Shown here one piece after another: positions 37,082 to 60,670 of a stretch of 61,362 nucleotides of DNA. Each line of letters begins with the position of its first letter. Position 1 is the stretch's first letter. The notes under the pieces were generated by a model. The model ran no database searches and was not told where the DNA came from. It was given only the letters and a program-made list of their open reading frames with translations. Source of the DNA: Nitrospirota bacterium (GTDB taxonomy: Bacteria > Nitrospirota > Thermodesulfovibrionia > Thermodesulfovibrionales > SM23-35); NCBI GenBank assembly GCA_040754395.1, contig JBFMCL010000020.1, positions 1 through 61,362 on the forward strand, read 5' to 3'. Position numbers and translations under genes: made by a program.

Positions 37082-37612
37082 ACCCAAATCCAGTGATACG
37101 TATAATCATTGCGAGTGCAGTTGCAAGGGCACAGCACGACACAATATAGAGCTAATGAGGCGTTTCCTGTCCCTGCGAGGAGCCCCTTTTCTGTCATTGC
37201 GATGCCCCCTGTTCTATCATTGCGAGGGCGCAGCCTGAAGCAATCTTGTCGTTCCATGCCAAAAACGAGATCGCCACGCTCCGCTCGCGATGACAGCCCT
37301 AAAAAAGCAATTGCGGAAAACACGGTGCGTATCGTTGCGAGTCCCTCTTTTCCTGTCATTGCGAGGAACAGAGTGACGAAGCAATCTCTTCGTTCAAGCC
37401 CTTCTGTCATTGCGATGCCCCCTGTTCTATCATTGCGAGGGCACAGCCTGAAGCAATCTCTTCGTTTTGCCCTAATCCGTCATTGCGAGGAACAGAGTAA
37501 CGAAGCAATCCCGTCCCATGCCAACAGCCAGATTGCCACGCACCTTTTATGTGCTCGCAATGCCCCGTATGCCAAACTCGTGAATTGGTTATCGCTGGAT
37601 CTGGGAACTATA
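37082..37612. mobile_element. MITE-like composite repeat element (copy 5)
   Basis: Left end CCCAAATCCAGTGATACGTA; right end GGTTATCGCTGGATCTGGGA; these are inverted relative to one another. The interior carries repeated GTCATTGCGAGG..GACGAAGCAATC units and three copies of GTCATTGCGATGCCCCCTGT-type text. It accounts, with tandem repeats on both sides, for the 840-base gap. No gene is seen. Confidence 0.68.
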
Positions 37613-37742
37613 TTTTTCAACTTAACAAACAATTCCTGAATATCCTGAAGCACATTATCTATATTATCACTTCTCTTCATTCTCCATCTATCTCAATAAA
37701 TCTCAACGTATCTCAAGGCATCTCTATCATCTCTATCAGTTG

Positions 37743-38255
37743 TCAGGGCTCTTCAGTTGAATCCTTGGCTCCTTTGCCCCTTGAATCCTCGGTTTTTTCC
37801 AGTTCTTTCATCACCAGATTGATCAGTACGGGGATATTCTTCTCCATCAGCGGCGAAAGTTCCATGCTGGCGTTAAGGCTTTCCGGCTCAATGCCATAGA
37901 AAATGATTTCCGGGGGTTTGGTGCCCAAAAAGGAGGTAATCTGCACCACATCAGTGAAATCAATGCCGTGGGCTGAGCGCATTACCCCCTTTTTCCCGGC
38001 AAGGTCTTTATCGGTAAAACGGAACAGGGTTCCCGGTGGCGCATCTGCCTTTACCGCATCTACCACAATGACCTTTTTCCTTCCCTCGATACAGTATACG
38101 AGGTCAAGACCGCCAGTGCCACCGTCAATCACTTCGACATCAGGAGGCAGAGACATTTGCTTCATTTTTTCGGCCACACGGACGCCGATTCCTTCATCGG
38201 TGAGAAGGATGTTGCCGATGCCGAGGACGAGAATTGGTTTCAAAGGTTGTTCCAT
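37743..38255 (-). CDS. Hydrogenase maturation protease (HyaD/HybD family)
   Basis: An M52 endopeptidase that removes the C-terminal tail of the [NiFe] large subunit once nickel is in place. The 170 residues show ILVLGIGNILLTDEGIGVRV (Glu about 22 as nickel ligand), VIVVDAVKADAPPG (Asp ligand) and the His in RSAHGIDFTDVV. The C-terminal tail (DSRGKGAKDSTEEP) derives from a repeat-like sequence. It is encoded downstream of the hydrogenase operon on the same strand and is the best candidate to process the large subunit at 39580-41364. Confidence 0.92.
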   Translation of the reverse strand: MEQPLKPILVLGIGNILLTDEGIGVRVAEKMKQMSLPPDVEVIDGGTGGLDLVYCIEGRKKVIVVDAVKADAPPGTLFRFTDKDLAGKKGVMRSAHGIDFTDVVQITSFLGTKPPEIIFYGIEPESLNASMELSPLMEKNIPVLINLVMKELEKTEDSRGKGAKDSTEEP

Positions 38256-38290
38256 AGCATGGTTATACCTTTCTGTCTTTAATATTGAGA

Positions 38291-38810
38291 CAACGGGATT
38301 GCTTCGTCATTTCATTCCTCGCAATGACGGAACAGGTGGCATCGCAATGACTCCCATAGTCGTCATCGCGAGCCGGAGGCGTGGCGATCTCGCTGTTGTT
38401 CTGAAGTATGAGATTGCTTCGTCACTTTGTTCCTCGCAATGACGGAATAGGTGGCATCGCAATGACTCCCATAGTCGTCATCGCGAGCCGGAGGCGTGGC
38501 GATCTCGTTGTTGGCGTTGAACGACGGGATTGCTTCGTCATTTCATTCCTCGCAATGACGGAACAGGTGGCATCGCAATGACTCCCATAGTCGTCATCGC
38601 GAGCGAAGCGTGGCGATCTCGCTGTTGTTCTGAAGTATGAGATTGCTTCGTCACTTTGTTCCTCGCAATGACGGAATAGGCGAATGCAAAGATGGCACAA
38701 GGTTGTTATTGCATGACCTTGGTGCCTTGTCATTGCGAGCGACCAGCGGGAGCACGGCAATCTGTTTTTTTTAGGGTTGTCATCGCGAGCGGAGCGTGGC
38801 GATCTCATCA
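38291..38810. repeat. Palindromic repeat block with 231-base tandem duplication
   Basis: A segment beginning GGGATTGCTTCGTCATTTCA at 38295 recurs at 38526 (offset 231) and continues nearly identical to about 38692. It contains alternating GACGAAGCAATC-type and GGCGTGGCGATCTCG-type units. No coding region is supported. Confidence 0.8.
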
Positions 38811-38830
38811 ACAGTGAATGCCTGTAATCC

Positions 38831-39118
38831 TCATAATTCATCATATAAATCCTTCCATCCAGGATTTACCGAATTCACCAATTCAAATTTCTTCTTTCTC
38901 GATCCACCCTTGATTTGCTTTTCGCGCTGAATCGCATTGAGAGAATCCATGAACACTTCATAATACACAAGTTTTGTAACATTGTAGTTTCTTGTAAACC
39001 CTTTGATCACCTTTTCCCTGTGCTCGAAGACTCTTTTCTTCAGGTTGTTTGTCATGCCTGTATAAAGGACACTGTTGTTTTTGTTCGACATTATGTACAC
39101 GTAAAAATAAGTGTCCAT
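38831..39118 (-). CDS. GIY-YIG domain protein
   Basis: A 95-residue GIY-YIG superfamily protein (UPF0213/YhbQ type). It has the modified signature VYIMSNKNNSVLYTGMTNNL (Y...YTG), the Arg in KKRVFEHR, and the Glu/Lys pair in AIQREKQIKGGSRKKK. Such small proteins are putative single-strand or structure-specific nucleases. It is sandwiched between two palindromic repeat blocks with no other partner, so it may travel with them or act on the hairpins they form (inference). No clear ribosome-binding site precedes the ATG. Confidence 0.85.
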   Translation of the reverse strand: MDTYFYVYIMSNKNNSVLYTGMTNNLKKRVFEHREKVIKGFTRNYNVTKLVYYEVFMDSLNAIQREKQIKGGSRKKKFELVNSVNPGWKDLYDEL

Positions 39119-39154
39119 ATGACATTATGTCATCAATGAGAGACGTGAAGCAAC

Positions 39155-39299
39155 CCAAAACGACGAGATTGCTTCGGGCTATGCCCTCGCAATGACGGTA
39201 TAGGTGGCATCGCAATGACTCCCATAGTCGTCATCGCGAGCGGAGCGTGGCGATCTCGTTGTTGGCGTTAAAGTATGAGATTGCTTCGTCATTCCATTC
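39155..39299. repeat. Palindromic repeat units downstream of tandem array
   Basis: Two or three units (GAGATTGCTTCGGGCTATGC, GTCATCGCGAGCGGAGCGTG, GAGATTGCTTCGTCATTCCA) of the dispersed family, continuous with the 24-base tandem array that starts at 39300. Confidence 0.75.
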
Positions 39300-39404
39300 C
39301 TCGCAATGACGGGTATAGGGGGACTCGCAATGACGGGTATAGGGGGACTCGCAATGACGGGTATAGGGGGACTCGCAGTGACGGGTATAGGGGGACTCGC
39401 AGTG
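39300..39404. repeat. 24-base tandem repeat, four full copies plus a partial
   Basis: Copies at 39300-39323, 39324-39347, 39348-39371 and 39372-39395 share CTCGCAATGACGGGTATAGG + GGGA (the fourth has one A-to-G change), followed by a partial copy to 39404. The unit is half of the dispersed palindrome plus a spacer, so it arose by slippage from that repeat. It is translatable antisense as PIPVIAS repeats but is not a gene. Confidence 0.9.
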
Positions 39405-44899: not shown

Positions 44900-45182
44900 C
44901 TATTCTCAAATCCAGCGACAGAAATAGTCATTGCAAGCGACAGAAGGAAGGGATTGCTTCGTCACTTTGCTCCTCGCAATGACCTTTTTGTGTCGTCATT
45001 GCGAGCGACCAGCGGGAGCGCGGCAATCTGTCTTTGGTCGTCATCGCGAGCCGGAGGCGTGGCGATCTCGCTGTTGGCATGGAACGACGGGATTGCTTCG
45101 TCGCCCTGCTCCTCGCAATGACAGAATAGAGCAGAACCAGCGGGATTGCTTCGTCACGGCGTTCCTCGCAATGACGGAATAG
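44900..45182. repeat. Palindromic repeat block with a left MITE-like terminus only
   Basis: Begins TCTCAAATCCAGCGACAGAA, the left terminus of the composite elements, followed by units GTCATTGCAAG..GATTGCTTCGTC..CTCGCAATGAC, CATTGCGAGCGACCAGCGGG and CATCGCGAGCCGGAGGCGTG. No matching right terminus is visible before the coding region at 45200, so the element seems truncated. No gene. Confidence 0.65.
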
Positions 45183-45199: not shown

Positions 45200-48100
45200 T
45201 TATGTCCCATCGGCCTTATTTGGGTTGCCCCCTTTGCCCTTTGCATCCCTATCCCCCGATGCTTTCATCTTCTTTCTGCACTCCACAAGGAGCTTCTGCG
45301 TATCCGCAGTGAAGTTGCCTGTTTCAATTGCTGCTTCCAGTAACGATGCCGCGTACTTATATAAATGAGTGTCGATAAATTGCCTGGCAAAAAATGAAAA
45401 ATAGGTTGCAGGGCTGAAATTCATCTCTCTCAATGCATTGATATATGCGAACCCCTTTTCTTTTTGCCCTGTACAGATAAGTACCATTGCAAGGGCAGTC
45501 ATCGCTTTCGGATATCCGGGCTCTTTTTGCAGCAATGCTTCAAGACGGGCAATGGCGTTTTCTACGGCACCGGTAAAAACTTCACAGGTTGCATAATGGA
45601 CAACTGTATCTCTCGACACAGGTGAAATCTGCATTGCCCGGTTATATGCCGAAATCGCTTCTGCATAGCGGCCAAGATTATAATTAACATTTCCCATGCT
45701 TTCAAGGGCATTCGAGAAATCGGGCTTTTTCGAGACAGCTTTCTCCAGGTATTCCAGTGCCTCCGGATATTTTCCGATTCCGGATGCCTGGACAGCAAGA
45801 TCAAAGAGAGCCTTTGCATCATCGCCGCCTTTTTGGACAAGTCTTTCCTTTCCCAGCATGAAGTAGTACTCGTGCTTGGCTGCCATTTTTTCTTCATCAA
45901 GCAGTCCGTAATGGTGAACGGGTATTTCACTGCGCTGCACAGAAATCCCCAGTGTAGTGAGCGATGGTTCGATCCGCTCATGCACAGGGTCCTCAAAACG
46001 AATGCGAGGATCATTCGGAAATAACCGTACCTTCTCGCCGTGGAACCATCCTGTGCCCGCTTCCTCTGACGCGTATGCCCCATCATTTTTAATCCATCCT
46101 GAAGTATTCACTGGTACGACATAATTACGGCTGACGAGTGTATAGGCGACAGCGGCAGGATTTAATGATTCCGGAGATTCAGGGTCTGCATGCTCTTCAG
46201 AGTCATCGTGGGCCGGAGGCGTGGCGATCTCTCTGTTGGCGTTGACCGACGAGATTGCTTCGTCGCTTCGTTCCTCGCAATGACCTTTTTGTGTCGTCAT
46301 CGCGGGTGACCGGAGGGGGTGAGGCAACCTGTCTTTTGTCGTCATCGCGGGCGGAGCGTGGCGATCTCGCTGTTCTGAGTGAGATTGCTTCGTCACTGCA
46401 TTCCTCGCAATGACGGGGGAAGAGGTCCTCCTCGCAATGACTGTCTGTTGAAGTTTACCCAAATCCTTGAATCCTCGACCCCTCGACCCCTCTGTAATGA
46501 GTTCTCTGAGCCTTCCATAGTCAGAGGAAGAAATAGCTTCATCCGCGTCCAGAATCAGTATCCATTTGCCGGTAGCCTTCGAGAGCGAAAAATTCCTCGC
46601 ATCAGAGAAGCTGTCAGTCCACGCAAAATCATATACCTTAGCGCCGAGGGCTGTTGCAATATCTTTTGTCCTGTCTGTTGAGCCTGTGTCAACAACGATC
46701 ATCTCATCTGCAAGGCCTTTTACGCTCATTAGGGCGCGGGCAATGTTATCCTGCTCATTCTTTGCGATCATGCATAAAGAGACAGAGAGTGATGGAGCCT
46801 CATTGAGATTGGGGGATTGTGAATCAGAGATCGTTTGAGACCGGCGGAGATCTGAGACAGTGTGAGATTCGTTGGAAGAGGAGCGAAACGGTCTGTCTTC
46901 TTCCTCTTGTAAGTCATCGCGGATGGAGCGTGGCGATTGCGGTGTTGTTCCGAACGATGAGATTGCTTCGTCGCGTTGCTCCTCGCAATGACTCCCATAG
47001 TCCTCATCGCTGGCGACCGGAGGGGGCGAGGCAACCTGTCTTTTGTCGTCATCGCGAGCCGGAGGCGTGGCGATCTCTCTGTTGGTGTTGAACGACGGGA
47101 TTGCTTCGTCACTGCGTTCCTCGCAATGACTCCCATAGTCCTCATCGCGAGCCGGAGGCGTGGCGATCTCTCTGTTGGCGTTGAACGATGAGATTGCTTC
47201 GTCACTGCGTTCCTCGCAATGACGGGGGAAAAGGTGCTCCTTGCAATGATCTTTTTGTGTCGTCATTGCGGGTGACCGGAGGGGGTGAGGCAACCTGTCT
47301 TTTGTCGTCATCGCGGGCGGAGCGTGGCGATCCCGCTGTCGGCATTCCGCGAGCAGACGGCGCGTTTTTTCAGTCGCAAGACCCAGCATCACTGTTGCCT
47401 CAAGCAGCCGGGAGGCATAATCAAACCGTTTCAATGAGATTAACTGTTCCGCCATATTTGTAAAATATGGTCCCGGATTGAACATGGAGTCCTGTGACTT
47501 TTTGGCATATTCAAATCCCTCATCTTTTCTGTCAGAGCAGAAATATGATACTGCGAGCAATTGCACTACCAGCGGATTATCAGATTCTATTGCATGGATA
47601 TTTTTGAGAGCACGGATAGCTGCATCAGGATTGCCGGCATAGAGTTCACAGGTTGCATACATAAAACTTGCATCTATGGAATCAGGGGATAGCTGGAGAG
47701 CCTTTTTGTAAGACGAGAGGGCTTCCTCATACCTCCCGAGGCTGTAGTATGATGTCCCTAACCCATAGTAGGCTTTTCCAATATCAGGCCTGATAGCAAT
47801 AAGTTGTTGCCAGTATTCCAGAGCTTCATCAAATTTCTCGAGTTCTGAAGCCTGTACCGCTAATTCATACAGAGCAACCGGATCTTTTTCACCCTGCTTG
47901 GAGAGTTTTTTTCTTCCCATTTGATAATACAGCTCACCTTTTGCAAGCACATGGTGCTTCATTAATTTCCCATAATGGTGGATGGGTATTTCTGTTGGCT
48001 TGATATCTATGCCGATTTTTTTCAGAGAATTTTCAACCATTTCGTGAACGGGATTTTCGAACCGGATGCGGGAGTCATTCGGGAACAGCCTCACTTTTCT

Positions 48101-51100
48101 GCTCGGGAACCATCCTGAGCCGGCCTCTTCCCGGTATTTCCCGTCGTTGGGATACCAGTTTACGCAGACTTCACCGACATAGTTCCTCGAGACGAATGAA
48201 TAGGCTACGGAAGGTTTGGAGGTTCCCTTTTTGTCATCGCGGGTGAACGGAGGCGTGGCGATCTCTCTGTTGGCGTTGAACGGCGGGATTGCTTCGTCAC
48301 CGTGTTCCTCGCAATGACGGAATGGGTTGGAGGACGGAATTGTATCGTCGCGCTGCTCTTCGCAATGACCTTTTTGTGTCGTCATCGCGAGCGGAGCGTG
48401 GCGATCTCGCTGTTCCAAGTGAGATTGCGTTGTCGCTTCGCTCCTCGCAATGACGGGGGAAGAGGTGCTCCTCGCAATGACTGTCTGTTGAAGTTTGTCC
48501 AAATCCTTGAATCCTCGACCCCTCGACCCCTCTGTAATGAGTTCTCTGAGCCTTTCATAATCCGAAGCAGCGATCACCTCATCGGCATCAAGAAGCAGTA
48601 TCCAATCTCCTGTTGCCTTTGAGATAGAGAAATTACGCGCGTCGGAAAAGTTGTCTGTCCACGGGAAATCATGTACGGTTGCGCCAAACACCCGTGCAAT
48701 CTTCTTTGTCCTGTCTGTGGAACCTGTATCTACCACTATCATTTCGTCAATAACAGGTTGAACACTCTGAAGCGCGTGCATGATATTTTGCTCTTCGTTT
48801 TTTGCGATCATGCATAAAGAGATAGTGCCCTCTTTTTTGACGTTGCGATCCGCCTCAGACGGAGTGGCAATCTCTTCCGTTTCGATGTCACTATGAGATT
48901 GCTTCGTCGTCCTGTCCCGACGCATGTCGGGATCGGCATTCCTCGCAATGTCAGCATTTTCTCCCTCAATTGACCCCATTTCCCCTTGCATCCTATTAAA
49001 TGAACCCCTTGACGACCTTATCTCCATCACTCCCACCTTCTGCCTCAGCTTCAGCGCAAGATTGAGTGTATCGTCATCGATCCCGAAGGCAATCAACGCC
49101 TTTTGTATCTCGTCCATTGCCTGTCGGAAGAGCCCCTGCTGAAGGAGGTTGTCGATAAGGATAAACTGCAGTTTTCTGCAGAATGGATAAAGCCCAATTG
49201 CCTCACGGAAGCGTTTTTCTGCTTCAGGCAATTTCCCGAGATCTACCGCAGCAGAATAGTAGTTGATCACTATGTCTTCAGACGTAGAGGAGAGAACAAA
49301 TGCCTTTTCGAACAGGGTGAATGCATCCTCTTTTTTCCCGTGACTCCATTTAAGCGCACCAAGATTTGAATAGGATTCACCATATCCCATGTCGGCATCC
49401 AGCGCCTTTTGAAAAAATCTCTCCGCGTCAGGATACAGGAGTTTCGCAAAAGCGAGAGTTCCCTTGAGATTCAGGGCTCCGGCAGAGGTGCGCATATTCA
49501 GGACTTCATCGGCATACTGCTCAGCTTCAGTCAGCTGACGCAACCCTTCCTTACAGTAGCCCATAAGCTCAAGCGCCATTACGTCATTCTTTATTCCCTC
49601 CGGCAAGTGTTCCAGGACATTAAGGGCCTCTTTGAATTTGCCGTCATCGATCAGTAATTCTGCGAGGGCGAAGTAGAGTCTTTTGTCATCAGGATATGCG
49701 TCGATCCCCTGCCTGAGCGTAACGACTGCGTTCCCTTTTTCTCCCTTTTGCCTCAATTCATCCGCAAGAAAAAGGCTGTCCATGCTGAACCGTTTCCTTG
49801 CGTCGGCTTCAGGACCGCCCTGATGTATCCATTGCTCGATAAAGACTCGTCTGTCTTTATTGAGGAGAGAGGCAATGTCTGCAGTCCGGCTGTCAGGTCT
49901 GTGATGGCCATGGAAATGCACAAATACATCACCGGCGATCATATTCCTGTACCCTTCCTCTGAAGCTCTGAAACAATAATCCTTATCCGCATATTTAGGC
50001 ATGTCATACCGCTCATCGAAGAGACCGATCTTCTCCGCCATCTCGTGACTGAAGAGCATGCAGAAACTGTCCACGTTTTTTACATACACACGACGGTATC
50101 TGTTCCTGTCCCTGAATTCCTTTGCAAACGCTTCAAGGGCTGTTCCGTCCGCGTTTCGTTCCTCACAATGCCCCGTCTTTTTGTCATTGCGAGCCGAAGG
50201 CGAAGAAATCTCGTTGTTGAGCTTGATGCGGGAGATTGCTTCGTCGTCCGTCTTGGCGGACTCCTCGTAATGACGAGAAGAAAAGGTGTCATTGCGAGCA
50301 GATTCTTTTTTTGTCATTGCGAGCCCGGAGGGCGTGGCAATCTTAACTCCCTGCCGTCCTTCCATGTTTACCGTCATGGGCCCGACTATCCCGATATCGT
50401 CAGCACTGCTGTGGCATTCAAGCAGACCCGTAAGCCAGTCTTTCGTGACTTCAACCGCATCATTCAGAAGAACGATGTGCTCACCCGATGATTCAGCCAT
50501 CCCCAGGTTGCAGGCTTGGGAAAAACCCAAAGGCTGTGATGAAAGATTCAGGGATTCGAGGGTTCGAGGATTCGAGTCCATTGACCCCTTGACTCCTTGA
50601 CTCCCTCCCCCCTCAATGTGAGAGGGTACTTTTATCAATCTGCAATTCCTGTTTTCCTTCAGAAGCCTCCGGAGCCATTTCGGCGGGGCAAACGAGGCAA
50701 TAAGGGGAACAAATATCAGTTCATATGACTCTCTGGTATGTTTCAGAACGCTCTCCACGCACTTTCTTGAATACTGCCGCTGACCTGAGAGAAGGATAAC
50801 GATGGAAACCAATCCTTCAGTCCTGAATTGATGCGGGGCAGGATCAGTTTCCTGTTCAACAGGGTGCATCATCTGCGTGTCACTTAATATATTCATGGGC
50901 TCTTTCAGTTCCGGCGCGGAACCAGTATATACTAAGTGTTTAATCTCCGAAGGTTCAGGAACGGGGATATAATGTTTTTTTGGATCAAAGGGCTGGGCCA
51001 GAATATCCGACAACATCTGTGGTGAATTATGATGTCCATATGGCAGGTCTTTGGGCAAATTCCACTTACTCTTGTATCTTTCCCATGCCTCCCACAATTG

Positions 51101-52648
51101 TCTGTTATACTGCATGTCGCCACGGCCCTGTGGTCCTCCCGTGTGATGGATAAAGACATCATTTGCGATATACGTCTTGAACCCGGCGATATTTGCCCGC
51201 CAGGTATAGTCATCGTCCTCAAACCCGAATTTTCCGAACGATGCATCAATGCTCCCGATCTTATCAATGACTTCTCTCCGGATGCACATGCAGAATCCGA
51301 CAAGCCGGACAGAGGGCGTTAGTTGACCGTGATGCTGTTGCGTAAACAGTGACGCGAAATTTTCCAGTTCATCGATGTTCTGGTATGAAACATTTGGCAC
51401 AATCTGCGCTCCAGAGACATAATTTGAGCGGGGACCCAGCACCCCAATGTAAGGATGAGACGTCATATGCGCGATGAATCTTGTCACCCATCCTTTTGTA
51501 ACGATCGTGTCATTGTCCAGCAGGATAACGTAATTACCTTTTGCGAGCGACATCGCCTGGGCGCGGGCAGGCGGGCAGCCGACATTTGTCGGATTTTCAA
51601 TCAGTATGATATCCGGCAACGAACGCAGGTACTCGAGCGAACCGTCTGTTGAAGCATTATCCACAACGATAATCTCATGCCTCTCAGGAGTATTTTTCCG
51701 TATTGATTCAAGGCAGGCTTTTATATTTTCAAGTCCATTGTAATTCAGAATGAGAATGGATACGAGTGGAGCCTCCTCGTGTATCACAGGAGAAGGAACA
51801 AATGGCTTCCCCGACGCGTCAATAAAGCTCAGCTCAACTTCCTGATGGCAGGCATTTGGGGTAAAATGCATGAATTGCCTGAGATCGATCCTGTATCCCT
51901 TCTCGAAGAGTTCAGTCAGTTTCTCAGGGCTGTATTCCCTCTTATTACTTGCCCTGTTTGTCCACGATTGCTGGACAATATTTGCCGGCGTGCAAAAAGC
52001 AGCAGACTGCTCAAAACACAGAAGGAAGGGTTTTTCTTTTTGAAATATGGATTTGTTGGCGTCAATGAATGCTTCAAGAGTATTTGGATTACGGAACGGA
52101 AATTGAGCGATAAAGGGCAGGATATCTTCTGTCCTATAAACAGAACTCGAGACCTCAAGTGGATAGCCAAAGTCACATTCACCCTTTGACCAATCGTACT
52201 TCAGAATGCCCTTGCCTACGGCTTCAAAATCGGGAAGTCGCTGATCCCTGTTCAGAGAATAGCAGTATTGGGTATTTCTTCCCAGACGAAGAGAGAATCC
52301 AAGAGCGTCAGTGTGACTTTCCAGACTTTGGAGAACCTCAAACATGCTGAAATCCCTTACAAATAAGCTGTTATCACGAAGAAATAGAACATGGTGAAAA
52401 GGAGCCAGTAGGGCACACATATCGCTTCGGAAATCCTGCTCACGAATAAACTGAATGGATGTATGCTGTCTGTACTCTTCAGCAAGTTTCTCATATTGTG
52501 TGGTATGCAAGGTAGCTGAAGTAGTATATAAAATGCGGATTTGAGTTGTTTCGATATCTCGACCATATAAGAGAAAGGAACGCAGTACTGCATCAAGCTT
52601 TAGAGCGCGGTCTTTACTGAATATCAGAACGATGCAAGAGAATTCCAT
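45200..52648 (-). CDS. Giant multi-domain glycosyltransferase/TPR protein with in-frame repeat insertions
   Basis: A 2482-residue cytoplasmic protein. Order: an N-terminal glycosyltransferase-like region (1-285), GT2 domain A (from ~294; SILILNYNGLENIKACLESI, LLDNDT), GT2 domain B (from ~610; VSIVILLSGQRQYSRKCVES), a TPR stretch (~960-1210), GT2 domain C (from ~1271; ISLCMIAKNEEQNI, LLLDADE), TPRs, GT2 domain D (from ~1958; VSLCMIAKNEQDNI, LILDADE) and C-terminal TPRs. C and D are duplicated modules of the SunS/O-glycosylation type. Five tracts encoded by dispersed palindromic repeats (such as HCEERSDEAISS and RDRHAPPAMTT) interrupt domains or linkers without breaking the frame. It probably builds surface glycan or glycosylates proteins. 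Confidence 0.85.
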   Translation of the reverse strand: MEFSCIVLIFSKDRALKLDAVLRSFLLYGRDIETTQIRILYTTSATLHTTQYEKLAEEYRQHTSIQFIREQDFRSDMCALLAPFHHVLFLRDNSLFVRDFSMFEVLQSLESHTDALGFSLRLGRNTQYCYSLNRDQRLPDFEAVGKGILKYDWSKGECDFGYPLEVSSSVYRTEDILPFIAQFPFRNPNTLEAFIDANKSIFQKEKPFLLCFEQSAAFCTPANIVQQSWTNRASNKREYSPEKLTELFEKGYRIDLRQFMHFTPNACHQEVELSFIDASGKPFVPSPVIHEEAPLVSILILNYNGLENIKACLESIRKNTPERHEIIVVDNASTDGSLEYLRSLPDIILIENPTNVGCPPARAQAMSLAKGNYVILLDNDTIVTKGWVTRFIAHMTSHPYIGVLGPRSNYVSGAQIVPNVSYQNIDELENFASLFTQQHHGQLTPSVRLVGFCMCIRREVIDKIGSIDASFGKFGFEDDDYTWRANIAGFKTYIANDVFIHHTGGPQGRGDMQYNRQLWEAWERYKSKWNLPKDLPYGHHNSPQMLSDILAQPFDPKKHYIPVPEPSEIKHLVYTGSAPELKEPMNILSDTQMMHPVEQETDPAPHQFRTEGLVSIVILLSGQRQYSRKCVESVLKHTRESYELIFVPLIASFAPPKWLRRLLKENRNCRLIKVPSHIEGGGSQGVKGSMDSNPRTLESLNLSSQPLGFSQACNLGMAESSGEHIVLLNDAVEVTKDWLTGLLECHSSADDIGIVGPMTVNMEGRQGVKIATPSGLAMTKKESARNDTFSSRHYEESAKTDDEAISRIKLNNEISSPSARNDKKTGHCEERNADGTALEAFAKEFRDRNRYRRVYVKNVDSFCMLFSHEMAEKIGLFDERYDMPKYADKDYCFRASEEGYRNMIAGDVFVHFHGHHRPDSRTADIASLLNKDRRVFIEQWIHQGGPEADARKRFSMDSLFLADELRQKGEKGNAVVTLRQGIDAYPDDKRLYFALAELLIDDGKFKEALNVLEHLPEGIKNDVMALELMGYCKEGLRQLTEAEQYADEVLNMRTSAGALNLKGTLAFAKLLYPDAERFFQKALDADMGYGESYSNLGALKWSHGKKEDAFTLFEKAFVLSSTSEDIVINYYSAAVDLGKLPEAEKRFREAIGLYPFCRKLQFILIDNLLQQGLFRQAMDEIQKALIAFGIDDDTLNLALKLRQKVGVMEIRSSRGSFNRMQGEMGSIEGENADIARNADPDMRRDRTTKQSHSDIETEEIATPSEADRNVKKEGTISLCMIAKNEEQNIMHALQSVQPVIDEMIVVDTGSTDRTKKIARVFGATVHDFPWTDNFSDARNFSISKATGDWILLLDADEVIAASDYERLRELITEGSRGRGFKDLDKLQQTVIARSTSSPVIARSEATTQSHLEQRDRHAPLAMTTQKGHCEEQRDDTIPSSNPFRHCEEHGDEAIPPFNANREIATPPFTRDDKKGTSKPSVAYSFVSRNYVGEVCVNWYPNDGKYREEAGSGWFPSRKVRLFPNDSRIRFENPVHEMVENSLKKIGIDIKPTEIPIHHYGKLMKHHVLAKGELYYQMGRKKLSKQGEKDPVALYELAVQASELEKFDEALEYWQQLIAIRPDIGKAYYGLGTSYYSLGRYEEALSSYKKALQLSPDSIDASFMYATCELYAGNPDAAIRALKNIHAIESDNPLVVQLLAVSYFCSDRKDEGFEYAKKSQDSMFNPGPYFTNMAEQLISLKRFDYASRLLEATVMLGLATEKTRRLLAECRQRDRHAPPAMTTKDRLPHPLRSPAMTTQKDHCKEHLFPRHCEERSDEAISSFNANREIATPPARDEDYGSHCEERSDEAIPSFNTNREIATPPARDDDKRQVASPPPVASDEDYGSHCEEQRDEAISSFGTTPQSPRSIRDDLQEEEDRPFRSSSNESHTVSDLRRSQTISDSQSPNLNEAPSLSVSLCMIAKNEQDNIARALMSVKGLADEMIVVDTGSTDRTKDIATALGAKVYDFAWTDSFSDARNFSLSKATGKWILILDADEAISSSDYGRLRELITEGSRGRGFKDLGKLQQTVIARRTSSPVIARNAVTKQSHSEQRDRHAPPAMTTKDRLPHPLRSPAMTTQKGHCEERSDEAISSVNANREIATPPAHDDSEEHADPESPESLNPAAVAYTLVSRNYVVPVNTSGWIKNDGAYASEEAGTGWFHGEKVRLFPNDPRIRFEDPVHERIEPSLTTLGISVQRSEIPVHHYGLLDEEKMAAKHEYYFMLGKERLVQKGGDDAKALFDLAVQASGIGKYPEALEYLEKAVSKKPDFSNALESMGNVNYNLGRYAEAISAYNRAMQISPVSRDTVVHYATCEVFTGAVENAIARLEALLQKEPGYPKAMTALAMVLICTGQKEKGFAYINALREMNFSPATYFSFFARQFIDTHLYKYAASLLEAAIETGNFTADTQKLLVECRKKMKASGDRDAKGKGGNPNKADGT
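46195..46450. repeat. In-frame repeat insertion within GT2 domain D
   Basis: Palindromic units (GTGGGCCGGAGGCGTGGCGA, GATTGCTTCGTC..CTCGCAATGAC) split domain D between LRELITEGSRGRGFKDL and VAYTLVSRNY. Encoded text includes HCEERSDEAISSVNANREIA. The frame stays open. Confidence 0.8.
46905..47345. repeat. In-frame repeat insertion between TPR region and GT2 domain D
   Basis: About six palindromic units occupy ~440 bases between the last TPR before domain D (LLEATVMLGLATEKTRRLL) and the start of domain D. Encoded text includes two HCEERSDEAI copies. The frame stays open. Confidence 0.8.
48230..48500. repeat. In-frame repeat insertion within GT2 domain C
   Basis: Palindromic units lie at the same place in domain C as the insertion in domain D, after ELITEGSRGRGFKDLDKLQQ. 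The ~80 bases on the plus-strand right side (about 48480-48550) are nearly identical to 46420-46510. Confidence 0.8.
48835..48960. repeat. In-frame repeat insertion before GT2 domain C
   Basis: GCAATCTCTTCCGTTTCGAT, GAGATTGCTTCGTCGTCCTG and GGCATTCCTCGCAATGTCAG encode NADPDMRRDRTTKQSHSDIE ahead of domain C. The frame stays open. Confidence 0.7.
50150..50350. repeat. In-frame repeat insertion within GT2 domain B
   Basis: Units GTCATTGCGAGCCGAAGGCG, GAGATTGCTTCGTCGTCCGT and CATTGCGAGCCCGGAGGGCG lie between GIVGPMTVNMEGRQGVK and ALEAFAKEFRDRNRY of domain B. The frame stays open. Confidence 0.75.
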
Positions 52649-52685
52649 AATTTTTTATAATAAATAATTCAGAACAACAATGTCA

Positions 52686-55208
52686 CTAATGCAGTTTTTC
52701 CCATAGTGACTTTGCTGCAATATTCTGAGGTTCTAAGGTTAGAGCTGCAATAAGATAATTTTTTGCTTTTTTGAAGTTTGAACGATGTAGTTCGAATGAT
52801 GCAAGTCCTGTCAGCGCTTCGACATTACGGAAATCGCTTTGAAGTAAGTTGAGAAGCTTTTCCTCCTCGGGAGTCGGTCCTTTTATTATTGTAGCCATTT
52901 TTTTGATAAAAATTTTCCCAATATCTTCTTCCATTTTGTTTTCTTGATTTTTTATAAATTTTCTGTATCCGTCAAAGTCCATAATTTTCACATCATAATT
53001 ATCAATACATTCCTTAATTTTAGAACAAATACTATTGATGTTACTGAAATCAAATTTATATTCTTCAGGTATAGGCATATCGTTATAATAATTAGCTGCT
53101 CCTATTTTACCCACAATCACACAGCATCCATTTGATGCTGTTTCTCGAGGGATTCTATCCATGCCTGGATGATTACCAAAGTCAATATAAACCTTACTCA
53201 TGTTATAAAGATGTACTAATTGACTAGTATTGAATCCCTTGAGAGGTATAAATTCTATTGAATTATTTTTGCAGTTATTTATAATTTGAACAGTTGTTTC
53301 CAAACCTTTGGCAGGATTGAATAAAACAATATTTTTCCTATGAGCTACTCTGATATTTCTATCTAAAAATAAATGATTCAAATATTCGCCAAGATAAAAA
53401 TTTCTACCTCCATTATTTTCAACATAATTTTGGGCAAAATTAGACTGGCAAAGATGATAGATATTTGAATCACTCCAATTGCTAAACTTTCCCTCAGAAG
53501 ATCGTAAATTATTATCAACACTCAACCACCAAATGCATTTTCTAATTTTTGAAAATTTATCCAATAGCTGTGTCCAGACCTCAGGGACTATTAAAATATT
53601 ATCCTTTTGATCTTCTATATGAACAGTTTCTCTGGTAATATATTGATCATATATGCGAGAGGAAGGTTTCCCATTACATAAAATATCGCCAAAAGCGCTT
53701 TCTTTGTAAGCAACGTAACAATTATAGCCTAATATATTAAATTTATGAGAAAGTTGATGTAATGCTTCAGGTCCGCCTGTTTCGCTTTTAAAGGGGATTA
53801 CTATATATATTTTGCTATTGTGCTGTAAAATTATATGTTGATACTTCTCCTTAACATAATTATGCTCCTTTTGTCTTAACTCTTCGTTTACGATTTTACT
53901 GAGCTGATAGTCCCATGTTCTATTTACCACATTGATTTTGTTCAACATCAAAGGTTCACCATACTTATCATGCAATCTCTTGTAATAATCGCAATCCATC
54001 AACCAAATTAGATTCTCATCAAATAGCAGAATATTCTTATTACGAATTGTAAGTACACTGGGTGAACTAATTGTATTATTTCCTAAGTAGATGTTTCTAT
54101 TATATTGGGGATAAAATGGACGATAAAATCTAATGCTATCATTGCTGTGTTCACATGCAGTAACTAACCAAGAGGCCTGAGGGTTTTGAGAAAATGCCTC
54201 AACAATTTCTTTTATGCTGTTATCAGAAAAGAGAAAATCATCTTGGAATAAAATCTTGATTAAATGACCTGTACAATTGATCAAGGCGTTATTTAAATTT
54301 GCTGAAGAATTGCCTCGTTTATTCTCATTTCTCAGATATTTTAAATTAAGAAAGCTTTCCCATTTTTTATATAGATTATAAATGTTATCATCCGTGCTAT
54401 GGTCAGAAATTACTACTTCAATATTTTTATATGTCTGTTCATAAATTTTGTTCAAACTGAAATCCAAAAACTCCACTCCATACCCATGCATTTCATAGCA
54501 AGGAATTGCTATAGAAACTAAAAGGTGATTATCTTTTTTTCTCCCAAAATACTCGATATGTATATCTCTATAAAAAATATCTATTTCTTTGAACCCAGCA
54601 TAATTCATCATCTCACGCACTATATATAAATCAAAAACATGATAGTGAGTATAAATTTGGGGATTTGATAAATAGTTCTTATGCCAAATATCAAAATTAT
54701 TAAAACAAAAATCTTTTGTTATATCGAAATTCATTAAGAATTCTTCTGTATGTGATTTATCATCAACCCCGACGTTATTATTTAGGTCCTCTATTAAATG
54801 GCTTAGCGTTGTAACACATCTTTTATGATCGAAAGTCTTTTGATAGTGTGGAATACATGCATATATAATTCCATCTTCTTTTAATATTCTTTTCCATTCT
54901 AAAAGAGCTTTTAAAGGATTAGTCAAATGTTCGATTGTGTGAGAAGATATTACCAAATCAATACTACTATCAGAAAGCATAGGCAGAGAATGAGCGTCAG
55001 CTTGGATGTCAAGTCTATATTCAGTATTGATATAACTTGAACTAATATCAACACTAATAATCTTATTATTTTCTACTATTTTTTCAATTATTGAATTTAC
55101 TGCACCACCAATTCTTAAAATAACTTTGTCTTTATTCCATTCATTTTTATGAAACAAAGCCTGGCAATTAAAAATAAAACGTTGCTGGTTATAGTCGTTA
55201 CACATCAT
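52686..55208 (-). CDS. Methyltransferase - glycosyltransferase - TPR fusion protein
   Basis: An 840-residue multidomain protein. The N-terminal ~230 residues are a class I SAM methyltransferase of Methyltransf_11 type (VILRIGGAVNSIIEKI, DLVISSHTIEHLTNPLKALL, WKRILKEDGIIYACIPH). Next comes a GT2 domain (LLVSIAIPCYEMHGYGVEFL, VVISDHSTDDNIYNLY, ILFQDDFLF), then a GT4-like region (IYIVIPFKSETGGPEALHQL, VYIDFGNHPGMDRIPRETAS) and a final TPR-like hairpin. It is strongly AT-rich relative to upstream genes, consistent with transfer. It lies 37 bases downstream of the giant gene's start codon and is read in the same direction. Confidence 0.85.
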   Translation of the reverse strand: MMCNDYNQQRFIFNCQALFHKNEWNKDKVILRIGGAVNSIIEKIVENNKIISVDISSSYINTEYRLDIQADAHSLPMLSDSSIDLVISSHTIEHLTNPLKALLEWKRILKEDGIIYACIPHYQKTFDHKRCVTTLSHLIEDLNNNVGVDDKSHTEEFLMNFDITKDFCFNNFDIWHKNYLSNPQIYTHYHVFDLYIVREMMNYAGFKEIDIFYRDIHIEYFGRKKDNHLLVSIAIPCYEMHGYGVEFLDFSLNKIYEQTYKNIEVVISDHSTDDNIYNLYKKWESFLNLKYLRNENKRGNSSANLNNALINCTGHLIKILFQDDFLFSDNSIKEIVEAFSQNPQASWLVTACEHSNDSIRFYRPFYPQYNRNIYLGNNTISSPSVLTIRNKNILLFDENLIWLMDCDYYKRLHDKYGEPLMLNKINVVNRTWDYQLSKIVNEELRQKEHNYVKEKYQHIILQHNSKIYIVIPFKSETGGPEALHQLSHKFNILGYNCYVAYKESAFGDILCNGKPSSRIYDQYITRETVHIEDQKDNILIVPEVWTQLLDKFSKIRKCIWWLSVDNNLRSSEGKFSNWSDSNIYHLCQSNFAQNYVENNGGRNFYLGEYLNHLFLDRNIRVAHRKNIVLFNPAKGLETTVQIINNCKNNSIEFIPLKGFNTSQLVHLYNMSKVYIDFGNHPGMDRIPRETASNGCCVIVGKIGAANYYNDMPIPEEYKFDFSNINSICSKIKECIDNYDVKIMDFDGYRKFIKNQENKMEEDIGKIFIKKMATIIKGPTPEEEKLLNLLQSDFRNVEALTGLASFELHRSNFKKAKNYLIAALTLEPQNIAAKSLWEKLH

Positions 55209-55227
55209 AGATTGATCAGGTTATCAA

Positions 55228-56322
55228 TCAAGCGCTTAATTTATTTTCAAATAAATTAAGCGCTTGGGCTATACATTGATCCATATTTAAATATTGGTAT
55301 GTTCCAAGCCGTCCACAAAAATAAACATTTTGCAGCTTGTCAGCTGTCTGCTGATACAATTTATATCTGGCTCTATTTTCATATGATGGTACAGGATAGT
55401 ATGGCTCATCATCGTTCCAGCAAGGATACTCTTTACTGATAGTAGTGTTCGAAATCTCTTGTTTATAAAGATATTTATATTCAACAATGCGTGTAAATTC
55501 ATAATTGTTTGGATAATTGATAACGCCGGTATGCTGATGATATTCTTTGGCATATCTTTCAAATTGGAAGTTTAAACTTCGGTAAGGAAGTTGACCGAAG
55601 TAATAATTAAAAAAGGAGTCAATGGTACCCGTATACACAAGTTTATCAAAAACTACTTCGTTAACGATATTCCTAAAGTCTGTATTTAGCAAAATATGAA
55701 TGTTGTGATGATCAAGCATCCTTTGAAATATTTTGGTAAAGCCTTCTTTCGGTAAGCCTTGCCATTTGTCTGTGAAATACCTCTTGTCATTGTTCATTCT
55801 GATTGGCAAGCGAAGAGTTACAGAAGCATCTAACTGTATAGGATCTATCCCCCATTGTTTCTTAGTATAATTTTTATAGAATGCGTTATATAAATCCCAT
55901 CCAACTTTACTAACAATTGCTTCTTCTGAATTTTGGGGATTGACAATTGGTTCTCTAATCTTATTCAGAAATTTCGGTAGTTCCTTTGAAGATAACTTTT
56001 TTTTAAAAAAATCATTTATTGTATTTATATTAAGCGGTAATGCATAAAATTTTCCCTCGACAAAGGCATCTACGTAATGAACATAGTCGTTGAACTCTGT
56101 AAATTGTGATATATAATTCCAAACACTTTTATTATTAGTATGAAAAATATGCGGGCCATATTTACTAATAAGAACTCCATTATTATCATAGTGATCATAA
56201 GCATTTCCACCTATGTGATTTCGCTTGTCAATAATTAATACCTTTTTATCCAGCTGACTTGCTATTCTCTCAGCTAATGTAGAGCCAGAAAAACCACAAC
56301 CGACAATCAGAAAATCATACAT
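55228..56322 (-). CDS. glf: UDP-galactopyranose mutase
   Basis: Flavoenzyme that converts UDP-galactopyranose to UDP-galactofuranose for cell-surface galactofuranan. The 364 residues show the FAD-binding start YDFLIVGCGFSGSTLAERIA, NHIGGNAYDHYDNNGV, KYGPHIFHTNNKSVW and the C-terminal FCGRLGTYQYLNMDQCIAQA. Length is typical. It overlaps the GT10-like gene by eight bases. It indicates galactofuranose in the surface glycan. Confidence 0.95.
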   Translation of the reverse strand: MYDFLIVGCGFSGSTLAERIASQLDKKVLIIDKRNHIGGNAYDHYDNNGVLISKYGPHIFHTNNKSVWNYISQFTEFNDYVHYVDAFVEGKFYALPLNINTINDFFKKKLSSKELPKFLNKIREPIVNPQNSEEAIVSKVGWDLYNAFYKNYTKKQWGIDPIQLDASVTLRLPIRMNNDKRYFTDKWQGLPKEGFTKIFQRMLDHHNIHILLNTDFRNIVNEVVFDKLVYTGTIDSFFNYYFGQLPYRSLNFQFERYAKEYHQHTGVINYPNNYEFTRIVEYKYLYKQEISNTTISKEYPCWNDDEPYYPVPSYENRARYKLYQQTADKLQNVYFCGRLGTYQYLNMDQCIAQALNLFENKLSA

Positions 56323-57151
56323 TTTTCAAAAATGGGAAAAAATGCTCGTTTATTACTTCTTTTAGTCGTATAGCTATCTCAATACAATATTTTAAACATA
56401 TATTATAGTTAAACTCAATACTAGCAACCCTATGATGATAATATGCTGGATTTAATGTGTTACAAATATCGATTATTGCTTGAACGCTTTCAGCAAATAT
56501 CATTCCATATGGATCAAAATAATTAGAAATATTGGGACATCCCCAATAAATAGGGATGGTTTTCGTAATAAAACAATCTAGAAGCTTTTCAGTGAACCAA
56601 TTATTAACCTTTGCATTTTCTATTGCAATGTGGAACTGAGAACTCATCATTAATAGTTTGCTGGAAGGAGAAATCGGTAATATGGGGTTATTGTCGATAC
56701 TTTCAACTGGGAGCGCACCGCTGATCCAGAAGGACTTTGGCATTTTAATTTCTTTTTGGCGGAACCAGATTTTTTGTCTAAGCAAATGGCCTTCCGTAAA
56801 TTTTTTAGCACCACATATGAATGAAACATCAAATGTTTTTTTCGTAGGCTCTATTTGTTGAGCATCTGACGGGTCTATCCATGACGTGCCAAATACAAAA
56901 AGGCGCGAATTGCTGCAAGCGGTCAGAATTTCTTCATCATGAGCGAGAATGAGATCAAACAAATCCCTATTTCGAATTACTTCAGCATTCGGAATACGAA
57001 AAGGTTGCACTTCGGAAAAAACGGTTAATATTCTGAGAACATTAGAAGGCGGTTCAAAAGGAAGAATATTGTTATAGATTACCACCGGTTGGGGGAAAAC
57101 TAATTTCCTTTTATCCATCCAGTCACAGTTAATAATGTCAGCTTGATACAT
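56315..57151 (-). CDS. Family 10 (alpha-1,3-fucosyltransferase-like) glycosyltransferase
   Basis: A 278-residue glycosyltransferase with the GT10 C-terminal signature FHIAIENAKVNNWFTEKLLD followed by CFITKTIPIYWGCPNISNYF, which binds GDP-sugar. The N-terminal part is a divergent acceptor domain. No membrane anchor is seen. GT10 enzymes transfer fucose, and the neighbouring GT11 and GDP-deoxysugar genes support a GDP-fucose or related donor. It is AT-rich like its neighbours. Confidence 0.8.
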   Translation of the reverse strand: MYQADIINCDWMDKRKLVFPQPVVIYNNILPFEPPSNVLRILTVFSEVQPFRIPNAEVIRNRDLFDLILAHDEEILTACSNSRLFVFGTSWIDPSDAQQIEPTKKTFDVSFICGAKKFTEGHLLRQKIWFRQKEIKMPKSFWISGALPVESIDNNPILPISPSSKLLMMSSQFHIAIENAKVNNWFTEKLLDCFITKTIPIYWGCPNISNYFDPYGMIFAESVQAIIDICNTLNPAYYHHRVASIEFNYNICLKYCIEIAIRLKEVINEHFFPFLKNV

Positions 57152-57263
57152 TTTTGCTAAAGAAATAAATTCTGTAGTCCGTTATGTTCCCGGTATATCT
57201 AAATCTAACATTCTGTTTCTTATCTCAAAACGTAATATCCCGCAAATAGAGTTTTTCTCGATA

Positions 57264-57418
57264 CATATATCTGAAATCCAGCGATAACGACAGAGAATAC
57301 TTGATTTATCAGTCATTACAAGCACCTACAGGGAGCGCGGCAATCTCCTCAAAATAGGCGAGATTGCTTCGTTGTTACTCGCAAAGCCATTCTTATCACT
57401 GGATTTTGATATATAATA
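57264..57418. mobile_element. MITE-like composite repeat element (copy 6), cleanest copy
   Basis: A ~155-base element with clear inverted termini: left ATATATCTGAAATCCAGCGA, right TCACTGGATTTTGATATATA. The inside holds one degenerate pair of palindromic units (GGGAGCGCGGCAATCTCC and GAGATTGCTTCGTTGTTACT). It fills the gap between the GT10 and GT11 genes. Confidence 0.75.
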
Positions 57419-57479
57419 ACACTTATTTCTCCTGAAGTTATGGAATAAATGTTCAGAGACAGTGCATCTGGCAAGAAAC

Positions 57480-58295
57480 TTAAAGTCTTTGCCACGATTC
57501 GGGAATAAGATCCTTCGGATCTAATTCTTGCGATGCAAACCATTTTTTCGGAGAAATAACGATTTTTTCAGGATTAGCAGACAACCATGCCCCCCACCAA
57601 CTGAAAGTACTGTTGGCGGTAATATGATGCTTGCATAAACTCATAAGCCACAAATCTTCATAATTTCTGTCAGGGCCATTATTGGTCATATAAGACGTAG
57701 GATATTCGAGTCGCAGATTATTGAACGCCCATGCCGGATCATCTGAAAAAACGAAAAAGCAAGGTTTGTCTATTATTTTGGTAACCTTCTCTATGGCACT
57801 GTAATAGTAATCTGCAGGGCAGATACCATGCACTCTGTTTGTATGAGGATTACTGACATAGTCACATCTCCGAATATGTACAGATACCGCATTCACACTC
57901 AGAATCTCTTGTGCCATTTTTTCATTAACAGCATCTGGGGCGCTTCTTAAAGTGAATTCATGCCGAATAACATTCTCTATGTCGTCAAAATACTTGGCGC
58001 TCTGCCAGTATCCTTCAAGATAGACGTCTTTGGGTACTTGCAGCATATCAGGATCAAAATAATATGCTTTTTCTCTTACAATGGAACCGGAACCGCGAAT
58101 ACTCATAATATCGTTTATGGATGCAATATCCTCAATAATATTGAAGTGCTGAAGAGAGTATCTATGTAAACGGTAGCTTTGAAACCCGGAGATATCAAGT
58201 TTCAGGGGAACTTCATTCATATAGGCGATTTTGCGGGCAAACGCATATTGAAATAATTGATTGCCCAGTCCGCCGATTAAAAAAACAATAACCAC
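57480..58295 (-). CDS. Family 11 alpha-1,2-fucosyltransferase
   Basis: A 271-residue GT11 enzyme that transfers L-fucose from GDP-fucose to a galactose 2-OH. It has the N-terminal GGLGNQLFQYAFARKIA, the GDP-binding motif VSVHIRRCDYV, FFVFSDDPAW and ITANSTFSWWGAWLS. Length fits the family. Read in the same direction as the rest of the glycan locus. Confidence 0.92.
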   Translation of the reverse strand: MVIVFLIGGLGNQLFQYAFARKIAYMNEVPLKLDISGFQSYRLHRYSLQHFNIIEDIASINDIMSIRGSGSIVREKAYYFDPDMLQVPKDVYLEGYWQSAKYFDDIENVIRHEFTLRSAPDAVNEKMAQEILSVNAVSVHIRRCDYVSNPHTNRVHGICPADYYYSAIEKVTKIIDKPCFFVFSDDPAWAFNNLRLEYPTSYMTNNGPDRNYEDLWLMSLCKHHITANSTFSWWGAWLSANPEKIVISPKKWFASQELDPKDLIPESWQRL

Positions 58296-58375
58296 TTGGC
58301 CTTTAACCTTGGAGAATCACTTAATGGAGAACTTGATATGAAAGTGTTGGACTTGCTCATGCAAGCATTCATTGA

Positions 58376-59551
58376 CTATTGCGCTCTTAAGCAACTGGAT
58401 ATGACTTCCAGATCAGTTTCGGTCAGTTCCGGGTAGTTTCCTGAGTAAAAACCGCAATTATGAATGAAATCCGTTTCTGGCAAATCATATTTATTTTGCA
58501 CATATTTATTGTAAAAAGGCTGATTCTGCATATTACCTGCAATCATGGGACGGATTTCAATACCAGCGCCACTAAACTGAAACAGATATTTTTCTCTTAA
58601 TGTTGGTGTCTTGCACAACACCGGCAGACAAAAACTGGACAATCGGGATATGTGTGAATGATCCAATGGCAAAAGATCAGCGTTAGACTCGATAATTTTG
58701 TTCAAGCGCCTGTAATTTTTTTCACGTCTATCTATTGCTTCCTCCAAAAACTGTAATTGCCGAAGCCCCAAGAAACCTGTTATCTCGGTGGGTCTGAAAT
58801 TAAAACCCAAATCATAAAAACTGTATTTTGCATCAAATTCGCTGCGTATATGCATTTTCTTGCGCCACCTGAATTGCTGTTCAGAATTGAGATTTCTGTC
58901 CCAGCCATTAGCCCGGACAATAGTTAGCATTTCTGCGATATTCTCATCGTCGGTACAAACCATACCACCTTCGATTGTAGACATATGATGGGCAACATAA
59001 AATGAAAAACTCGATACAATCCCGAAGTTACCGGTCTTTCCAGCCGGCAATTCAGTCCCAAGCGATTCACAATTGTCTTCAATTAAAATGATACGGTGCT
59101 CATTGCATATATTTCTAATCACATCCAGATCCCCCGCAAAACCAAGGGCATTTGTAATAAACAAAGCTTTCAATTCGACTGAGCTCAACCTTTCCTCTAA
59201 ATTATATGACATCATATTCAGTGTTTTTTTCTCACAATCGATGGGGACAGGTACAAAGCCCAACTGGATTATCGGCATTACGTTAGTCGACCAGGTTAAA
59301 GCCGAGAATCCTATTTTGTCATCTTTCTTTAACAGACCAAGGTTTGCCAATGTCTGTATAATCGCAAGATTGGCACTACCACCACTGTTGAATAATACAG
59401 CGTATTTGCGGTTCTGATAGCTAGCAAAGGCTTTCTCAAATTCAAAGCAGTGATGGTCCATGCTCAGTCGCTGGGCCTTAACTATAAACTCCGCAAGTGC
59501 TTGTTTCGTTTCATATTCATTAATAAACGCATTTTTCATGAGTGGGATCAT
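58376..59551 (-). CDS. ColD-like PLP-dependent GDP-4-keto-6-deoxymannose 3-dehydratase
   Basis: A 391-residue DegT/DnrJ/EryC1-family enzyme. The usual PLP-lysine position is occupied by His (SFSFYVAHHMSTIEGGM), a hallmark of ColD/RfbH-type 3-dehydratases, which remove the sugar 3-OH instead of adding an amino group. Other motifs: FNSGGSANLAII, WSTNVMPIIQLG, EDNCESLGT, FNFRPTEITGFLGL. It overlaps the GDP-fucose-synthase-like gene by one base, and this pairing matches the colitose pathway (ColD then ColC). The exact product sugar is inference. Confidence 0.82.
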   Translation of the reverse strand: MIPLMKNAFINEYETKQALAEFIVKAQRLSMDHHCFEFEKAFASYQNRKYAVLFNSGGSANLAIIQTLANLGLLKKDDKIGFSALTWSTNVMPIIQLGFVPVPIDCEKKTLNMMSYNLEERLSSVELKALFITNALGFAGDLDVIRNICNEHRIILIEDNCESLGTELPAGKTGNFGIVSSFSFYVAHHMSTIEGGMVCTDDENIAEMLTIVRANGWDRNLNSEQQFRWRKKMHIRSEFDAKYSFYDLGFNFRPTEITGFLGLRQLQFLEEAIDRREKNYRRLNKIIESNADLLPLDHSHISRLSSFCLPVLCKTPTLREKYLFQFSGAGIEIRPMIAGNMQNQPFYNKYVQNKYDLPETDFIHNCGFYSGNYPELTETDLEVISSCLRAQ

Positions 59552-60495
59552 TATGATAGTCCTTTGTTATATTTTTGGTCTCGATACTCTTTAATCACCC
59601 GGTCTATACCGTCATCCAGTGTTATGGAAGGCTTAAATCCTAATGAGTCCAACTTGGAAGTATCAAGACATTTTCTCAACATTCCATCGGGCATGCCATT
59701 ATCCCAATATATCTTCCCATAATAATTAACTTTTTCTGATATTATTTCAGCTAATTCCTTGATTGATATATCAGTTCCCCATCCAACATTAATTATTTCA
59801 GGTGAATTCCAATTCTTTGTTAGGAACAGTAATGCAGAAGCAAGATCATCCACGTGCATGAACTCCCGTCTTGCAATGCCACTTCCCCAGAGTACCACTT
59901 TTTTTTGATTTTCATCAATAGCATCAACAAATTTTTTGACTAACGCTGCAAGAACATGTGAATTCATTGGATCAAAGCTGTCATTAGTCCCATAAAGATT
60001 ACATGGTATAGGATTCAGACATTGCAACCTATACTGCTTGTGATAATACTGTGTCAAACGCAAACCCGCTATTTTCGCAAGTGCATAACCTTCGTTGGTT
60101 GGTTCGAGAGGACCTGTCATAAGATATTCTTCTTTCATGGGTTGAGGGCATTCCCTCGGGTAAATACAAGAACTACCCAGAAATACAAGTTTTTTTACGC
60201 CGACCTTGAGGCACTGATGAATGATATTACTTTGAATCATGATGTTATCGTAGAGAAAATCTCCCGGAAATTCCCTGTTTGCCTGAATCCCTCCGACCCT
60301 TGCAGCAGCTAAAAAAACGTAAGCCGGATGTTCTTGCGCAAAAAAAAGTTCAACATTTCGTGTGTCCCGTAAATCGAGTTCCTGTCTGCTAACGGTGACA
60401 ATTCTATTGTAGCCCTCACTCAGTAAGGCTCTCATAATCGCGGAGCCGACCATTCCATTGTGACCGGCTACAAAGATGGTATCGTTTTTATTCAT
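59551..60495 (-). CDS. fcl: GDP-L-fucose synthase / ColC-like epimerase-reductase
   Basis: A 314-residue short-chain dehydrogenase (extended) that epimerises and reduces GDP-4-keto-6-deoxymannose. NAD(P) motif FVAGHNGMVGSAI, LAAARVGGIQANR, FLGSSCIYPRECPQP (Ser), and the YxxxK pair YALAKI, then NPIPCNLYGTNDSF. Next to a ColD-like gene it could instead act as ColC, making GDP-L-colitose. A GDP-mannose 4,6-dehydratase is not in the window. Confidence 0.9.
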   Translation of the reverse strand: MNKNDTIFVAGHNGMVGSAIMRALLSEGYNRIVTVSRQELDLRDTRNVELFFAQEHPAYVFLAAARVGGIQANREFPGDFLYDNIMIQSNIIHQCLKVGVKKLVFLGSSCIYPRECPQPMKEEYLMTGPLEPTNEGYALAKIAGLRLTQYYHKQYRLQCLNPIPCNLYGTNDSFDPMNSHVLAALVKKFVDAIDENQKKVVLWGSGIARREFMHVDDLASALLFLTKNWNSPEIINVGWGTDISIKELAEIISEKVNYYGKIYWDNGMPDGMLRKCLDTSKLDSLGFKPSITLDDGIDRVIKEYRDQKYNKGLS

Positions 60496-60587
60496 AAGTC
60501 CGCATACGAAAAAGGTCGAGTATCAGCATTATTAATATAATAACATTTTTCATTTCTCTACATTATTTGTACTCCACATACTCCGCA

Positions 60588-60646
60588 ATCTCGTCTTATC
60601 ATCTGAGATTGCCACGCACCTTTCAGGTGCTCGCAATATATTAGGG
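60588..60646. repeat. Palindromic repeat unit
   Basis: CGCAATCTCGTCTTATCATC followed by TGAGATTGCCACGCACCTTT and GCTCGCAATA is one pair of units of the dispersed family, close to 18164-18233 in layout. Confidence 0.65.
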
Positions 60647-60670
60647 ACGTTGGTTCTCAGAGTGCATTAC

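Follow-up and report, generated by a model that had tools for sequence, protein, structure and literature searches.

In-frame repeats at four homologous loop and linker sites of a giant glycosyltransferase from a Nitrospirota bacterium

The giant glycosyltransferase (GT) described here carries palindromic and other repeats in frame at a few homologous loops and linkers, termed S1-S4. It is encoded within a window of 61,362 nt, meaning the whole stretch of DNA that was analysed (contig JBFMCL010000020.1 of a Nitrospirota bacterium). The explanation that we hold to be likely is that repeats land or are copied widely, that stop-free and frame-keeping inserts survive in permissive loops, and that intragenic recombination spreads them. 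Under this explanation, short palindromes of the REP type, together with one or more other repeats, would insert or be copied across the chromosome region regardless of genes, and selection would remove the insertions from most genes. A few loops and linkers per GT2-TPR module would tolerate extra residues, such that openable inserts persist there. Since the modules of the protein are duplicates of one another, an insert could be copied by recombination from one loop to the paralogous loop. Translation of the inserts is probable, and the resulting peptides would form disordered loops that contribute little or nothing functionally. S1-S4 have the look of landing pads at which repetitive DNA is tolerated, rather than of places that house one useful insert.

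Architecture of the giant glycosyltransferase and its insert sites

An earlier note on this DNA had described a 7.4-kb reading frame that stays open through five palindrome tracts. All five tracts are present, the coordinates of the frame are exact, and it contains no internal stop. The domains are arranged in the order N-terminal domain, GT2-A, GT2-B, TPR, GT2-C, TPR, GT2-D, and TPR, with Glycos_transf_2 and TPR matches above the Pfam cut-offs along the length of the ORF. The GT2-C core resembles the solved structures of GmaR (22ao, E 1.4e-28) and SunS, which are, however, much smaller chains.

The insert sites were defined by pairing the conserved flanks around each tract across homologues. 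S1 and S2 belong to GT2-B, S3 is the linker from TPR to GT2, and S4 is the loop that follows the DADE helix. Most homologues have approximately 1, 16, 2-12, and 4-7 residues at S1, S2, S3, and S4, respectively, which serve as base lengths below.

45200-52648, minus strand: giant glycosyltransferase ORF of 2482 codons (2482 aa) without internal stop
50531-50620, minus strand: S1, GT2-B loop; 30 aa compared with a base of ~1; second repeat family (TCGAGGGTTCGAGGATTCGAG)
50117-50341, minus strand: S2, second GT2-B loop; 75 aa compared with a base of ~16; tract 50170-50340
48818-49000, minus strand: S3-C, linker from TPR to GT2-C; 61 aa compared with a base of 2-12; degenerate REP pair 48838-48955
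48206-48532, minus strand: S4-C, GT2-C loop; 109 aa compared with a base of 4-7; tract 48225-48490
46787-47347, minus strand: S3-D, linker from TPR to GT2-D; largest REP tract, 46905-47345
46148-46492, minus strand: S4-D, GT2-D loop homologous to S4-C; 115 aa; tract 46197-46450

Three REP monomers are called at S2 (50183-50342) and seven at S3-D (46961-47332). S4-C, which lies between the DADE helix and the motif VAYSFVSRNY, and S4-D each combine the second repeat family with four called REP monomers. The tract 48838-48955 at S3-C is degenerate and was picked up only with a looser pattern and by eye. Relative to short-loop homologues, ~29, 59, 57, 102, and 108 extra residues are present at S1, S2, S3-C, S4-C, and S4-D. 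Since the reading frame is the same before and after each insert, the insertion lengths are of necessity multiples of three. The second repeat family (TCGAGGATTCAAGG type, TCGAGG) is unrelated to the REP and lies in frame at 50545-50620, 48480-48560, and 46440-46520. Its strict triple form occurs in the source genome at those three places only and has further places in other genomes of the family.

In AlphaFold2 models of GT2-C and GT2-B (six and five sequences, respectively), the inserts score below 50 in pLDDT and most of the conserved N-terminal core between 70 and 90, with means of 56 (GT2-C) and 52 (GT2-B). These weak models are consistent with disorder of the inserts and indicate only the absence of a predicted fold. 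A role as flexible linkers, as had been proposed for the peptides, agrees with the two tracts between TPR and GT2 domains but not with the other three, which are situated in loops inside GT2 domains.

Repeats in the window and in the genome

The REP-like palindrome of the window has the form GTCATTGCGAG...GCAATC, with variants. In total, 72 monomers are called, compared with 0, 0, 0, 1, and 0 in five Markov resamples. They are distributed as 53 intergenic monomers, 18 in the giant GT ORF, and one at 20610 in a hypE-like gene; the last probably matches by chance and was discounted, so that 71 credible ones remain. No convincing monomer is found in the other ~37 genes of the window. The claim that the tracts in the ORF belong to the palindrome family of the intergenic gaps is supported.

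44952-45175, no strand assigned: intergenic REP tract with five monomers of the same family, just downstream of the giant GT ORF
34392-39310, no strand assigned: region containing the densest intergenic REP tracts (34392-34962, 37216-37564, 38297-38804, and 39167-39310)

The outer tag of the 72 monomers reads CGTC in 33, TGTC in 22, and CCTC in one. Neighbours at most 70 nt apart are arranged as +- in 21 cases, as -+ in 19, and on the same strand in 14, with spacers of 20-23 nt in 17 of the 21 +- pairs. Upon DNA folding of four monomer types, two beat their shuffles (z -4.1 and -5.0) and two do not; the stems contain internal mismatches. By raw counts, similar copies may favour near neighbours, 15 of 41 similar pairs being at most 2.5 kb apart compared with 19% of all monomer pairs. 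A 184-nt stretch occurs twice, with 96% identity, on either side of a TPR gene (22403-22586 and 24078-24260 around 22758-23861). At 36925-37053, nine copies overlap one another in a tandem register of 10 nt (ACATGGAGAT type), and this array overlaps the 5' end of ORF 35019-36986 on the minus strand.

Lone intergenic monomers leave a mean of 4.45 of the six frames open, and the ten intergenic tracts of at least 144 nt leave 8 of 60. All four called tracts in the giant GT are free of stops in the frame that is read. The sense copies are read in two frames (HCEERSDEAI and VIARSEATTQS) and the antisense copies in three (EIATPPARDD, DRHAPPAMT, and LRSPAMT). The peptide HCEERSDEAI, which the earlier note had singled out, does occur but is only one of these readings. 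The mixture of frames together with the open tracts fits the survival of openable insertions, with no one peptide being favoured. Papers searched for HCEERSDEAI and TCATTGCGAG gave nothing relevant.

The 2.98-Mb genome contains 79 exact TCATTGCGAG matches, of which ~49 are on the contig of the giant GT. In 20 other stretches of the genome, mostly picked for containing TCATTGCGAG REP matches, the REPs are sparse and mainly form dispersed inverted pairs of another subtype; the REP-like matches there are mostly intergenic, and those in ORFs L060 and L068 look like chance matches. The region 13474-50342 of the window forms a local REP island, far denser than the 20 sampled stretches and with many pairs at a spacing of 22-23 nt. 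Around the four Y1_Tnp (Y1 transposase) matches, flanks of 1.5 kb were read and are devoid of REP ends. The involvement of a RAYT was sought and not found, nor was an enzyme found that would move these REPs.

Homologues and history of the inserts

Giant GT2-TPR proteins are present in relatives, and the C-type module occurs in 27 of 176 genomes of the order. Homologues with and without inserts were both found, and the inserts occupy homologous sites. Among the modules read, S4 exceeds seven residues only in five genomes of four genera (G000, G004, G006, G007, and G017), and all modules read from other genera have 4-7 residues there. The expanded S4 loop of G017 contains no recognised repeat. 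REPs are also present in the giant GTs of G004 and G006, which represent two further genera of the family. Across three genera, four ORFs contain called REPs—18 in the window, 11 in two ORFs of G004, and five in G006—and all of these REPs are at S1-S4; the second G004 ORF has one clean pair at S4. Part of the reason for examining these ORFs closely was that they contain repeats, so that the position of the repeats counts as evidence and their frequency does not.

An unrelated palindrome (CCCCCCTTTNNNAAAGGGGG type) occupies S1 and S4 of G007 and S1 of G016. Copies of this palindrome number ~127 in G003, 28 in G016, and two in G007, both of which are in the giant GT ORF. The sister species G016 and G003 differ by 54 nt at S1, with a repeat remnant in G003, within a 2.8-kb alignment of 92.7% identity; the difference may be a loss in G003. 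Permissive sites and turnover are favoured by the recurrence, in several genera, of unrelated repeats at sites that are homologous, and by the short-loop relatives found alongside. The earlier suggestion that the palindromes are selected or tolerated as coding sequence holds in part: tolerance is supported and fits both the insert-free homologues and the surviving open frames, whereas selection for the peptides is not supported, given the several frames, the two orientations, and the unrelated repeats at the same sites.

The same observations weigh on the idea of a selected function, in which the insert peptides would be retained because they alter acceptor choice or how the GT modules are spaced. 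S4 does lie between the conserved DADE half and the second half of the GT2 domain, several genera have inserts, and these have apparently been copied between modules. Many homologues, however, manage with only 4-7 residues at S4, and such a function is improbable. Its broader form appears equally doubtful; here dispersed repeats would be a continuing source of new loop sequence, and the S1-S4 inserts, spread by conversion, would persist for the changes that they bring to acceptor specificity or module spacing.

A tree was built from 27 modules with the loop left out. The window C module groups with G013/G017 (99/96) and the window D module with G007/G006 (99/95). By parsimony on these 27 rows, the REP state takes five changes for the five REP-bearing rows, and the expanded-loop state takes only five for nine rows. 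This is compatible with older insertions followed by loss and turnover. A single old insertion at each site, passed on by descent with later divergence, is the history that the authors favoured for the Rickettsia palindromic elements RPE-4/6/7. It would account for every expanded S4 loop being found in one family and for the homology of the sites. However, near relatives of inserted modules are without inserts (G013 beside window C), the REP state changes as often as there are REP-bearing rows, the contents are unrelated between genera, and the present tree leans to the empty modules not being nested losses. We regard a single old insertion as unlikely, and survival of repeated insertions in permissive loops as the better account.

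The two S4 loops of the window protein share a block of ~180 nt that spans the second repeat and the first REPs.

46351-46530, minus strand: D-module half of the shared block; 87-95% identical to 48391-48570 in the C module

Nearby DNA of these old paralogous modules is 48-73% identical, and the block takes in module codons beside the site (RLRELITEG). We read this pattern of identity as probable copying between modules after their divergence. Two captures of one composite repeat could also have produced the block, as a weaker alternative. A literature search on repeat capture in paralogous loops gave nothing close.

Comparison with known systems

REPINs are paired short palindromes with a short spacer, and the window REPs are similar to them. 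Compared with the REPIN/RAYT systems (PMC3116915), the window REPs differ in that no linked RAYT was found in the source genome. A superfamily of CGTC-tagged REPs with stems of 8-9 bp and loops of 4-5 nt, mostly arranged as head-to-head dimers, has been reported from five phyla (Di Nocera et al. 2013, PMC3733652). The window REPs share with it short palindromes with a frequent CGTC or TGTC at the outer end, inverted pairs, intragenic copies, and no adjoining transposase that could be found. The window monomers, mostly 26-41 nt long and with internal mismatches, appear to differ from the published stems and loops. In-frame REPs were already published for other bacteria, with clusters coding for 43-82 residues and several inserts per ORF (PMC3733652). 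What is new is the comparison, namely homologous sites that appear to be filled independently across genera.

The parallel with Rickettsia palindromic elements that the earlier note had drawn is a fair one. RPE-4/6/7 have in common with the window repeats the in-frame insertion at sites common to orthologues and ATGAC at the palindrome end, and they are reported at solvent-exposed positions (PMC3767692). In contrast to them, the giant GT sites belong to modules duplicated within one protein family, these sites are also taken up by unrelated repeats, and close insert-free homologues exist. For RPE-4/6/7, hotspots and one old insertion were both discussed, the authors leaning to a common origin and keeping hotspots possible (PMC3767692). 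The giant GT bears on this question of shared hotspots or one old insertion, and the GT2-TPR family is one in which it is testable with strains and expressed modules.

Targeting at the DNA level, with repeats preferring a sequence or structure at S1-S4, would explain why the same sites recur and why repeats cluster with repeats inside the tracts, but it is very unlikely given that unrelated repeat families occupy the same sites. That the gene is decaying or an assembly artefact is barely credible: the G003 homologue has an in-frame TAA and the contig has unusually many REPs compared with the rest of its genome, but all 2482 codons are open, the GT tracts are open in the used frame while intergenic tracts are mostly closed, the pattern is the same in G004 and G006, and the only obgE above the family cut-off is located on the contig of the giant GT. 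A mis-binned contig, considered for its REP density far above that of the sampled stretches, was rejected on the same obgE result and on the REP pair 18150-18230, which resembles the dispersed dimers of the genome.

The TAA of the G003 homologue (L050, G003:C85) is at 2550-2552 and splits two otherwise collinear ORFs. For the homologue pair G016/G003, dN/dS is ~0.38, the pair being from another genus and the G003 copy being the one with the TAA. In the window, the region 52650-61362 has a G+C of 0.357, compared with ~0.46-0.51 in sampled stretches of the genome; it contains glycosyltransferase and sugar genes and is devoid of REP ends. An in-frame REP, read as SLRAEGEAIS, is located at 9112-9139 in a transglutaminase-like ORF (L076, 8402-10252 on G000:C40), which reaches the contig end and codes for at least 617 aa.
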